Assembly (NCBI RefSeq): GCF_016918015.1
Contig: NZ_JAERMK010000008.1
Location: 124,001-188,000 of the forward strand
From: Glycomyces sp. YM15
GTDB lineage: Bacteria > Actinomycetota > Actinomycetes > Mycobacteriales > Micromonosporaceae
Reading direction: 5' to 3'
DNA: 64,000 nt
The translations under genes were made by a program, and so were the position numbers. Below the pieces are notes generated by a model. That model was given only the letters and a program-made list of their open reading frames with translations, was not told the origin of the DNA and made no database searches. Below are positions 13,191 through 19,357 of this stretch, one piece after another. The first letter of the stretch is position 1, and each line of letters starts with the position of its first letter.

Positions 13191-14395
<1,205 letters not shown>

Positions 14396-14469: not shown

Positions 14470-15456
14470 TCAGGCGACGAGCATTTCCTCTTCCGCGACA
14501 ACGTCGTCGGGGCCGGGGATGCCGTGCTCCTGGGCGCGCTTGGTCGCCATGTTGATGAGGCGGCGGATGCGGCCGGCGATGGCGTCCTTGGTCAGGGGCG
14601 GGTCGGCGAGGGCGCCGAGTTCCTCGAGGGAGGCCTGGCGGTGGTCGAGGCGCAGGCGCCCGGCGGAGGCGAGGTGCTCGGGGACGTCGTCGCCGAGGAC
14701 TTCGAGGGCGCGGGTGACCTTCGCGGCGGCGGCGACGGCGGCGCGCGCGGAGCGGCGCAGGTTGGCGTCGTCGAAGTTGGCGAGGCGGTTGGCGGTGGCC
14801 CGCACTTCGCGGCGGACGCGCCGCTCCTCCCAAGTGAGGACCGAGGAGTGGGCGCCGAGGCGGGTGAGCAGTTCGCCGATGGCGTCGCCGTCGCGGATGA
14901 CGACGCGGTCGACGCCGCGCACGTCGCGGGACTTGGCGGCGATGCCGAGCCTGCGGGCGGCGCCGACGAGCGCCAGCGCCGATTCGGGGCCGGGGCAGGT
15001 GACCTCGAGCGAGGAGGAGCGGCCGGGCTCGGTGAGGGAGCCGCGGGCGAGGAAGGCCCCGCGCCAAGCGGCCTCGGCGCAGCACGGGTAGGCGCCGACG
15101 ACGTGGTTGGGCAGCCCCCGGACGGGGTAGCCGCGCTGGTCGGTGAGGCCGATCTGCTTGGAGAAGGCCTGGCCGTCGGCCATGACGCGCAGCAGGTAGT
15201 GGTTGTTGCGGCGCAGCCCCGCGGCCACGAGCACGTGGATCTCGGACTCGTAGTGGTAGAGCTGGTCGATCATGCGCTTGGCGCGGCGGGCGACGTTGCC
15301 GGCGTCGACCTCGGCCTCGACGACGACGTTGCCCTGGCCGACGAGGTGGAGGCCTCCGGCGAACCGGAAGAGCGAGCCCAGTTCGGCGCGCTGGCAGCAG
15401 GATTTCGTCACCTCGATGCGACTGAGTTCGTCCTTGACCTCCGAGGTCATCGCCAT
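14470..15456 (-). other. whiA: Possible internal whiA start within the YvcK-WhiA frame
   Basis: In relatives WhiA begins MAMT, which here is the ATG at 15456, giving a normal-length 328-residue WhiA. A weak GATGGTGG lies about 8-9 bases upstream. Independent initiation at this codon would give free WhiA even if the frame is fused. Confidence 0.55.
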
Positions 15457-16377
15457 TCGTAAACCACCATCTTCGACCAGCAGGTTTCCCAATACGGCAG
15501 CCAGCGCGGCGACATCGTGCGTCACGCCGTCGGAGGCGAGATCCGCCGCCACGAGCTGGGCCTCCAACGATTGTGCCGCACTGTTCAACGATCCGGGGTC
15601 GGCGAGGGTTCGGGTGTCGCCCGAGACGACGTAGTGAAACCGGACACCTTCCGCGTATCGGCGCAGCGTGTCGAGATGTCCCGCGAGGGTGAGGCCGTCG
15701 GTCTCCTTCTCCTCGGAGAGGTTGAGCACGACGATGCGGCGGGCTTTGGAGGCGCCGACGGCCTCGCGGAGATCGGGGAGGAGGAGGTGCGGGATGACGG
15801 AGGTGTACCAGGAGCCGGGGCCGAAGACGTGCCAGTCGGCTTCGGCGACGGCTTCGAGGGTCTCGGGGCAGGCGGTGGCGTCGGCGGGGAGGAGCCGCAC
15901 GTCCATGACGTTGCCGTCGGCGACGGCGACGTCGTGCTGGCCGACGATGGTGCGGGTGCCGGGGCCCTCTTCGAGGTCGGCCTCGATGTCGAGCGGGGTG
16001 CGGGACATGGGGAGGACGCGGGCGCGTGAGCCGAGGAGGCGGGCGGCGAAGTCGAGGGCGTCCACGGGGTTGTCGTGGAGTTCGAGGAGGCCGGTGAGGA
16101 CGACGTTGCCGACGGGGTGGCCGGTGAGGAAGTCGTGGCCGCCGAAGCGGTGGGAGAAGAGGCGGGCGGTCTCGGATTTGGCGGGGTCCGCGGTGGCGAC
16201 GAGGGCTTTGCGCAGGTCGCCGGGGGGCAGGACGGGCCGGGTGGCGCGGATGTCGCCGGTGGAGCCGCCGTCGTCCGCCACGGTGACCACGGCGGTGAGG
16301 TCGACGTCGAGCCTGGTGAGGGCGCGGAGCGCGGCCGAGAGGCCCCGACCGCCGCCGAACGCGACGACTCTGGTCAT
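14470..16377 (-). CDS. YvcK (UDP-GlcNAc-binding) and WhiA in one continuous reading frame
   Basis: One uninterrupted frame of 635 codons covers two proteins that are normally separate. Residues 1-307 are YvcK/GlmR-like: [36 protein letters not shown] and [14 protein letters not shown] are the family's binding loops; this family binds UDP-N-acetylglucosamine and controls cell-wall precursor flux. Residues 308-635 are Whi[22 protein letters not shown] at the start, a homing-endonuclease-like N-terminal fold, then the helix-turn-helix part ending [14 protein letters not shown]; WhiA is a sporulation and division activator. No stop codon lies between them. GAGGTG lies 7 bases before the first ATG. 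Either a true fusion or a read-through arrangement with an internal whiA start; a lost stop by sequencing error is also possible. Confidence 0.9.
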
Positions 16378-16480: not shown

Positions 16481-17380
16481 TCACTCGTTGCCCCGGTCGC
16501 GGTGGTGGGTGTTGGCGGGGAACCCGGCGGCGTTGAGGCGCTTCGCGAGCGATTCGGCGATGGCGACGGAGCGGTGCTTGCCGCCGGTGCAGCCGATGGC
16601 GATCGTCATGTAGCGCTTGCCTTCCCGTTCGAACCCTTGGGTGGTGCCGAGCAGCAGGGAGGCGTAGGCGGCGACGAATTCCTCGGCGCCGTCCTGACCG
16701 AGGACGTAGTCGGAGACGTCCTGGTCGGTCCCGGTGTGCTCGCGCAGGGTGGGAACCCAGTACGGGTTGGGAAGGAATCTTACGTCGGCCACGTAGTCCG
16801 CATCGCGCGGGATGCCGTACTTGAACCCGAAGGACATGCAGGTGAACTGGAGTCCCGGGGTGGAGGGCGCGAGGAAGGCCTCCTCGACGCGGGAGCGCAG
16901 CTGGTTCTCGTTCATGTGCGTGGTGTCGAAGAGGGTGTCGGCCGAACCGCGGGCCGGTTCGAGGATGCGGCGCTCGGCGGCGATGCCGTCGGCGAGCATG
17001 CCGTCGCCTTGGAGCGGGTGGGCGCGGCGGACCTTCTCGAAACGGCGGATGATGATGTCGTCGTCGGCGTCGACGAACACGAGGTGGGGTTTGAAGCCGC
17101 CTTTGCGGAGGTCTTCGATGACGCCCACGAGGTCGGTCATGAACGCGCGTGAGCGCACGTCGAGGACCATCGCGGTGCGCCGCACCTCCGCTCCCCCGGC
17201 CGCGGCCAGCTCGGCGGCCTGGCCGACGAGCGATTCGGGGAGGTTGTCGATGACGTAGTAGCCGACGTTCTCCAGTGCGCGCGCCACCGTCGAGCGGCCG
17301 CCTCCGGAGATGCCGGTGACGATCACCAGGTCCAATTCGCTGCGGTCGGTCCCGTCCGCTTGCACTGCTGCCACACCCAT
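16481..17380 (-). CDS. rapZ: RapZ/YvcJ-family RNase adapter, nucleotide-binding protein
   Basis: P-loop protein of 299 residues; in enterobacteria RapZ controls amino-sugar synthesis via small RNAs, in other bacteria the role is less defined. The Walker A region reads GISGGGRST, with Arg where classical loops have Lys, as I recall being usual in actinobacterial members. The C-terminal domain carries [21 protein letters not shown] and the conserved [12 protein letters not shown]. The order rapZ-yvcK-whiA is conserved in Gram-positive bacteria; here uvrC precedes it. The 103 bases between its stop and the yvcK start hold no clear hairpin. Confidence 0.93.
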
Positions 17381-17473: not shown

Positions 17474-19357
17474 TCAAGCCCCGTTGTCGTCGGGATTACG
17501 CAGATGTGTCTGCAAAGCCACGGCCAGTTTGGGGCCGATCCCCGGAACCGCTTCCAAATCGGACAGTTCGGCTTCGCGGATGCGCTTGACGGAGCCGAAC
17601 TGCTTGAGGAGGGCCTTGCGCTTGGACTCGCCGAGCCCCGGCACGCCGTCGAGGGCCGAGTTGATGAGGCTCTTGCGCCTCCTGGTGCGGTGCAGGGAGA
17701 TCGCGAAGCGGTGGGCCTCGTCGCGGACGCGCTGCATGAGGTACAGGGCCTCGGAGGTGCGCGAGAGGATCACCGGGTAGTCCTCGCCGGGGAGCCAGAT
17801 CTCCTCGAGGCGCTTGGCGAGCCCGGCGAGGTTGATCGTGTCGATGCCGAGTTCGGCGAACACGGCCTCGGCCGCGGCGACCTGCGGCTGGCCGCCGTCG
17901 ACGACGAGCAGTTGCGGCGGGTAGTGGAAGCCGCGCTTGGGCTCCTCGTCCTCCTCGGTGGGCGAGCCGGTCGGCTGGTCGGCGAGCTTCGCGAGGCGGC
18001 GGCGCAGGGTCTCCTGGAGGCTCGCGAGGTCGTCCTTGCGCTCGCCTTTGATGACGAAGCGGCGGTACTCGCTCTTGCGCGGCAGGCCGTCCTCGAAGAC
18101 GACCATAGACGCGACCACGTCCTCCCCTTGGGACTGCGAGACGTCGTAGCATTCGATCCGCAGCGGCGCCTCGGGCAGGTCGAGGGCGTCCGCGAGCTCT
18201 TCGAGGGCCTTCGAGCGGGCGGTGAGGTCGCCGGCGCGCTTGAGCTTGTGGCGCTGCAGGTTCTCGATGGCGTTCTTCTCGACGGTCTCGGCGAGCGCGC
18301 GCTTGTCGCCGCGGCGGGGCACGCGCAGGTCGACCTTGGCGCCGCGCCGTTCGGAGAGGAGTTCGGCGAGGGCCTCGGCGTCGCCGGGGAGGGCCGGGAC
18401 GAGCACCTCGCGGGGCACGACCTCGTTCTGCTCGCCGTAGAACTGAAGGCAGAAGGCCTCCACGATCCCGGGAAGGTCGACCGGTTCGGCCTTGTCGATG
18501 ACCCAGCCGCGCTGGCCGCGGATCCTGCCGTTGCGGACGTGGAAGACCTGGACGGCCGCTTCGAGCTCGTCGTCGGCGACGGCCATGACGTCGCAGTCGA
18601 CGTCTTCGGCGAGGACCACGACCTGCTGTTCGAGGACCTTGTCGAGTGCGCCGATGTCGTCGCGCAGGCGCGCGGCCTTCTCGAATTCGAGGGCTTCGGA
18701 GGCCTCCTGCATCTCCTTGAGGAGCCGACGGCGCACGGGGGCGTGGTCGCCGGACATGAAGGCGCAGAAGCCGTTCACGAGTTCGCGGTAGTCCTCGGCG
18801 GAGATGCGGCCGACGCAGGGGGCGGAGCATTTGCCGATGTCGGCGAGGAGGTTGGGACGGCCGATCCGGTTGCAGCGCTTGAACTCCGAGTCGGAGCAGG
18901 TGCGGATCGGGAAGACCCGGGTGAGGAGGTCGAGGGTCTGGCGGATGGCCCACGCGGAGCCGAACGGTCCGAAGTAGCGCACGCCCTTGCGTCGGGCGCC
19001 GCGCATGACCTGGGCGCGCGGGAACTCCTCCCCCACGGTGACGGCCAGCCACGGGTAGGACTTGTCGTCCTTGAACATGACGTTGAAGCGCGGGTCGTAC
19101 TCCTTGATCCAGGTCCACTCCAGTTGGAGGGCCTCGACCTCGGTGGCGACCACGGTCCACTCGACGCTGCGGGCGGTGTTGACCATGCGGCGGGTGCGCT
19201 CGTGCAGCCGCGACTCGTCGGCGAAGTACGAGTTCAACCGGTTGCGGAGGTTCTTGGCCTTGCCCACGTAGATGACGCGCCGGTCGCGGTCCCGGAAGCG
19301 GTAGACGCCCGGCTCGGTCGGGATGGTGCCGGGGGCGGGACGGTAATCAACTGCCAC
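17474..19357 (-). CDS. uvrC: UvrABC system protein C
   Basis: Dual-incision nuclease of nucleotide excision repair. The 627-residue protein has the GIY-YIG domain at about 14-92 ([22 protein letters not shown]), the UVR helical motif around 205-240 that contacts UvrB ([18 protein letters not shown]), the RNase-H-like endonuclease domain with [15 protein letters not shown], and a C-terminal helix-hairpin-helix pair ([26 protein letters not shown]). It begins with GTG and TATCCT lies six bases upstream, so translation may be leaderless. It lies just upstream of rapZ, the common actinobacterial order. Confidence 0.97.

Follow-up and report, generated by a model that had tools for sequence, protein, structure and literature searches.

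The genes for YvcK and WhiA adjoin across Gram-positive bacteria, for reasons that are not settled. In actinobacteria they belong to a described rapZ-yvcK-whiA cluster with glycolytic neighbours (PMC4255298), and the YvcK residues reported to bind UDP-sugars in Bacillus subtilis are Thr14, Asn218, Tyr265 and Arg301 (PMC5482804). For whiA itself, work on Streptomyces venezuelae places the sporulation promoter of Streptomyces, whiAp2, just inside the upstream gene, and reports that a strain with an N-terminal 3xFLAG-WhiA sporulates with a delay, and does better when a flexible linker is included (PMC3781837). Among the literature matches listed, from a coverage that most subscription journals fall outside, no title or abstract opening names a natural YvcK-WhiA fusion.

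In the stretch of Glycomyces sp. YM15 analysed here (64,000 nucleotides, hereafter the window), the two genes lie on the minus strand and are read as one frame (Table 1). This 635-codon frame is real: both the ORF listing and our re-translation follow it from its ATG through 635 residues with no stop codon inside, frame 1 of the plus strand over the same interval does contain stops, and the same stop-free frame was recovered on searching the window's own assembly, a draft of 5,672,275 bases in 62 contigs that is 99.65% complete. NCBIfam profiles recognise both halves above their family thresholds, YvcK with 247.4 bits against a cut-off of 196 and WhiA (residues 311-611) with 330.4 bits against 44.1, whilst Pfam finds CofD followed by PF10298, PF14527 and PF02650, so that the WhiA part has the N-terminal, LAGLIDADG and HTH domains required of its family. 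A chance open frame is ruled out by these matches; what is read as one frame is two conserved proteins, with a computed mass of 67.7 kDa when joined (31.9 for the YvcK part and 35.5 for the WhiA part). The preliminary description, made from the letters alone, had proposed 635 stop-free codons encoding YvcK and then an entire WhiA starting with an ATG at 15456, and this stands in full, with the strand now given as minus and the ATG as residue 308 of the joined frame. Around the join, codons 304-310 read GGT GGT TTA CGA ATG GCG ATG. Upstream lie rapZ and uvrC and downstream gapA (Table 1), in keeping with the arrangement known from actinobacteria (PMC4255298).

Table 1. Features of the yvcK-whiA locus and its neighbours, in window coordinates.
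Feature	Position	Strand	Basis and remarks
gapA, downstream neighbour	13191..14186	minus	TIGR01534, 433.1 bits, cut-off 367.2
Joined YvcK-WhiA open frame	14470..16377	minus	635 codons and the TGA stop (14472-14470); ORF list and re-reading
WhiA part	14473..15456	minus	328 codons (308-635) from the ATG at 15456; TIGR00647 and three Pfam domains
Codon 306, TTA	15460..15462	minus	Other genus genomes: TAA in 15/21, TGA in 1/21
GGTGG, ribosome-site-like	15464..15468	minus	7 bases before the whiA ATG; putative function
YvcK/GlmR part	15463..16377	minus	Codons 1-305; TIGR01826 on residues 4-256
rapZ, upstream neighbour	16481..17380	minus	NF003828, 332.5 bits, cut-off 244
uvrC, upstream neighbour	17474..19357	minus	NF001824, 1005.4 bits, cut-off 451

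Comparison of the junction across 22 genomes of the genus, the 21 others all belonging to other species, leaves the window's genome as the only one without a stop. By alignment, YvcK ends at the position of codon 305 in 16 of the 21 relatives, G016 being the one with TGA at the place of codon 306. Four others (G019, G018, G004 and G017) have TAA one codon later, immediately 5' of the whiA ATG; G021 likewise carries TAA, its WhiA lying in a different frame. Thus in 20 of 21 relatives yvcK and whiA share a frame and are separated by a stop codon only, with three bases from the yvcK stop to the whiA ATG in most. The sister genome, Glycomyces luteolus NEAU-A15 (G009), has TAA in a junction one base apart from that of the window, and its YvcK and WhiA are 97% and 99% identical to the window's. 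Four bases lie between stop and ATG in G021 (loci L022 and L023), the sole genome of the 22 in which the frames differ, and in L104 (Glycomyces xiaoerkulensis). The expectation that relatives carry separate adjacent genes is therefore borne out in 21 of 21 genomes. The suggestion that a fusion ties UDP-GlcNAc sensing to WhiA fares less well: 20 of the 21 relatives have a stop at codon 306 or 307 and the remaining one has TAA too, the search of close genomes called for in the preliminary description rules out a fused frame common to relatives (0/21), and stops between residues 300 and 308, which that description had named as refuting its own proposal, are present in genus genomes of other species.

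Beyond the genus, our searches took in 200 genomes of the family (199 matching), 397 of the order (392) and 148 of the class (143), sets that overlap each other and the genus and together make 679 distinct genomes (G000 to G678). Among the matches listed for these genomes, no other full-length stop-free YvcK-WhiA frame was found. In the wide searches, scoring took in the top 3 to 8 first-look candidates of each genome; a joined match would be expected to score above split ones. Since a fusion might go unnoticed where WhiA alone matches within a long open frame, we also read the junction DNA of listed WhiA-only matches in open frames of about 570 residues or more; fusions with a long linker were ruled out at 40 of 40 loci, each from a different genome and each with separate genes, with G581 left out as its match reaches the contig end. 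Altogether 132 loci were compared, of which 131 are separate and one, the window's, is joined; since several genomes are counted under two numbers in this set, and the way it was found enriches it for same-frame arrangements, we draw no frame statistics from it. Junction spacing varies widely, from an overlap in which whiA covers the last 10 bases of yvcK in another frame, seen at 11 actinobacterial loci (L155-L157, L159, L216-L218, L220, L221, L223 and L226), to a gap of 636 bases in L207.

When did the stop disappear? A maximum-likelihood whiA tree of the 22 genomes makes the window's genome and G. luteolus sisters (support 97/91). Because the latter and the next relatives have TAA, these sequences place the loss of the stop on the terminal branch to the window's genome, provided that the base is correct. 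The sisters' yvcK genes are distinguished by 35 of 918 bases and, leaving the stop aside, nine amino acids, their whiA genes by 34 of 987 bases and two amino acids, which makes YvcK the less constrained half. The changes unique to the window's genome comprise five synonymous ones and the stop change in yvcK (nine sequences), and five synonymous ones and one amino-acid change in whiA (ten sequences). These changes give no sign of decay in either gene; each half appears to be whole, and the sequence at the join bears no obvious mark of adaptation to a fused state.

Counted across heuristic ORFs of the entire contig, the sisters differ by about 6% of 167,540 aligned bases; with that much divergence, it would be no surprise for one of a stop codon's three bases to have changed. 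For ORFs whose alignment covers 80% or more of their length, the stop positions coincide in 133 of 144 from the sister (another 62 of its 206 matched partially or not at all) and in 130 of 140 from the window's genome (13 of 153 likewise), some of the exceptions at least being alignment ends. Scanning sister ORFs for pairs joined in the window's genome returned none, a weak control in that an antisense ORF was picked over whiA in the sister and the yvcK-whiA pair itself was missed; the converse scan returned one pair that is separate in the window's genome and joined in the sister. There, two ORFs at G000:C61:105849-107645, on the window's contig and outside the window, correspond to a single 598-residue ORF at G009:C46:222211-224007, which has no Pfam match, with TGA in the window's genome against CGA in the sister, the opposite direction to the yvcK change. 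Stop differences of the yvcK-whiA kind may therefore not be unique.

What would a cell make from such a frame? The whiA ATG and the GGTGG before it are unchanged in the window's genome; of the 22 genus genomes, 21 share GGTGG, the exception being G021 with GGTGA close by, and G016 retains it although the preceding end of yvcK has diverged. Computed pairing of the 30 upstream bases with a 16S tail scores -11.4 in the window, -12.0 in the sister and -11.4 in the L017 genome, whose yvcK stop lies one codon further on. Given the retained start signals, and a Streptomyces whiA promoter within the upstream gene, WhiA is expected to arise from internal starts and is probably still made in free form from its own ATG, as the preliminary description had also allowed. 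GACAC boxes were rejected as evidence for a whiA promoter within yvcK: over the last 300 bases of yvcK, GACAC or GTGTC occurs in all 22 genus sequences, at varying places, and the motif has been called very frequent (PMC3781837). By analogy with tagged WhiA, a YvcK joined directly might be tolerated, though possibly at a cost, as a linker-less N-terminal tag slowed sporulation in S. venezuelae (PMC3781837).

We consider it likely that this is a recent stop loss, confined to one species or strain and tolerated there, with free WhiA still being made. If the base is right, an A-to-T change on the branch to this species or strain would have turned the yvcK stop from TAA to TTA; ribosomes finishing yvcK would then run on into whiA and yield a 67.7-kDa YvcK-WhiA protein, whilst free WhiA would most likely come from its own ATG and GGTGG, as well as through any promoter that whiA has within yvcK, and free YvcK would be lost. 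The domains would fold independently around a short, probably disordered join, and both may work, so that the change would be tolerated. Considering how many bases separate the sisters in both genes, substitutions are plentiful. The main rival, which we regard as unlikely, is that the T in the middle of codon 306 is an error that arose in sequencing, in assembly or during culture, the species itself having an ordinary TAA. In its favour, this is the lone stop-free case among the matches listed from 679 genomes, one record stands behind the T, the junction is a single base from that of the sister, and the assembly is a draft in 62 contigs; out-of-frame alignment gaps against the sister contig affect 28 of 144 aligned ORFs in one direction and 30 of 140 in the other, a heuristic count that pools real, alignment and error gaps. 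However, the change is a substitution and not a homopolymer indel, consensus substitutions should be rare in such draft assemblies, this one is almost complete, and elsewhere both genes are intact and under constraint.

It could also be that the fusion is used: YvcK would sense UDP-sugars and signal to the joined WhiA, alone or beside free WhiA, the change being favoured now or later. Both domains are complete, the wide conservation of the cluster has been taken to indicate that YvcK and WhiA may act in one process (PMC4255298), and S. venezuelae tolerates N-terminal additions to WhiA (PMC3781837). Yet the joined frame is common to none of the 21 genus relatives and its join is without adaptation. 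A model of the joined protein, built from 39 sequences, predicts two mostly confident separate folds (mean pLDDT 88) around a join at residues 304-308 with pLDDT under 50, and its pTM of 0.53 gives no confident mutual placement of the two domains, and hence no predicted fixed arrangement. The UDP-sugar-binding residues are covered in part by alignment to the solved protein 2hzb: the Asn is kept, Thr13 of 2hzb aligns with Arg in the window's YvcK, and the Tyr and Arg fall past the aligned part. Functional YvcK-WhiA coupling is unsupported, and we judge a used fusion decidedly improbable. A further version turns on the new codon itself. TTA codons have a regulatory role in Streptomyces through bldA, and most of the conserved TTA-containing genes found in that study are confined to Streptomycineae (PMC4255298). 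The leucine codon TTA is rare: in the 153 heuristic ORFs of the window's contig, it accounts for 15 of 59,540 codons, and codon 306 is the only one in the joined frame. Perhaps, then, a UUA-reading tRNA gates the completion of YvcK-WhiA beside free WhiA, giving two forms of WhiA, one of them coupled to UDP-sugar binding and developmental tRNA supply? With TTA at the join, the joined product would depend on tRNA-Leu(UAA), for which there is one match among the 47 tRNA matches in the genome (about G000:C12:198343-198425); TTA is also one of seven sense codons a single step from TAA, and we hold such gating to be extremely improbable.

Loss of the intervening stop is a general mutational route by which same-frame neighbours fuse, and the window's case follows it: same-frame neighbours with a 3-base spacing in most relatives, one substitution apart, whose frame is continuous in the window's genome and interrupted by a stop in the sister and outgroups. 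It differs in being seen in a single genome and in showing no trace of having been kept for long or tuned; an established fusion would be joined in more than one species, and here the joined arrangement is found in none of the 21 genus relatives and, among the matches listed from 679 genomes, in none besides the window's. If the base is wrong, the ordinary cluster alone remains; if it is real, two same-frame neighbours have become one frame through a single substitution, and the strain would offer a natural test of whether covalently joined YvcK and WhiA work. Each half resembles its own family. The window's YvcK passes the YvcK/GlmR cut-off but bears WhiA at its C-terminus; its WhiA has the same three Pfam domains as other members, aligns with the solved WhiA chains 8dy7_I and 8dy9_I over residues 310-630 of the joined protein, and differs by the in-frame YvcK before it. 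The gene order, too, is that of the actinobacterial rapZ-yvcK-whiA cluster (SCO1952, SCO1951 and SCO1950 in S. coelicolor), whereas in the window the yvcK stop is a sense codon, and the two genes form one frame.
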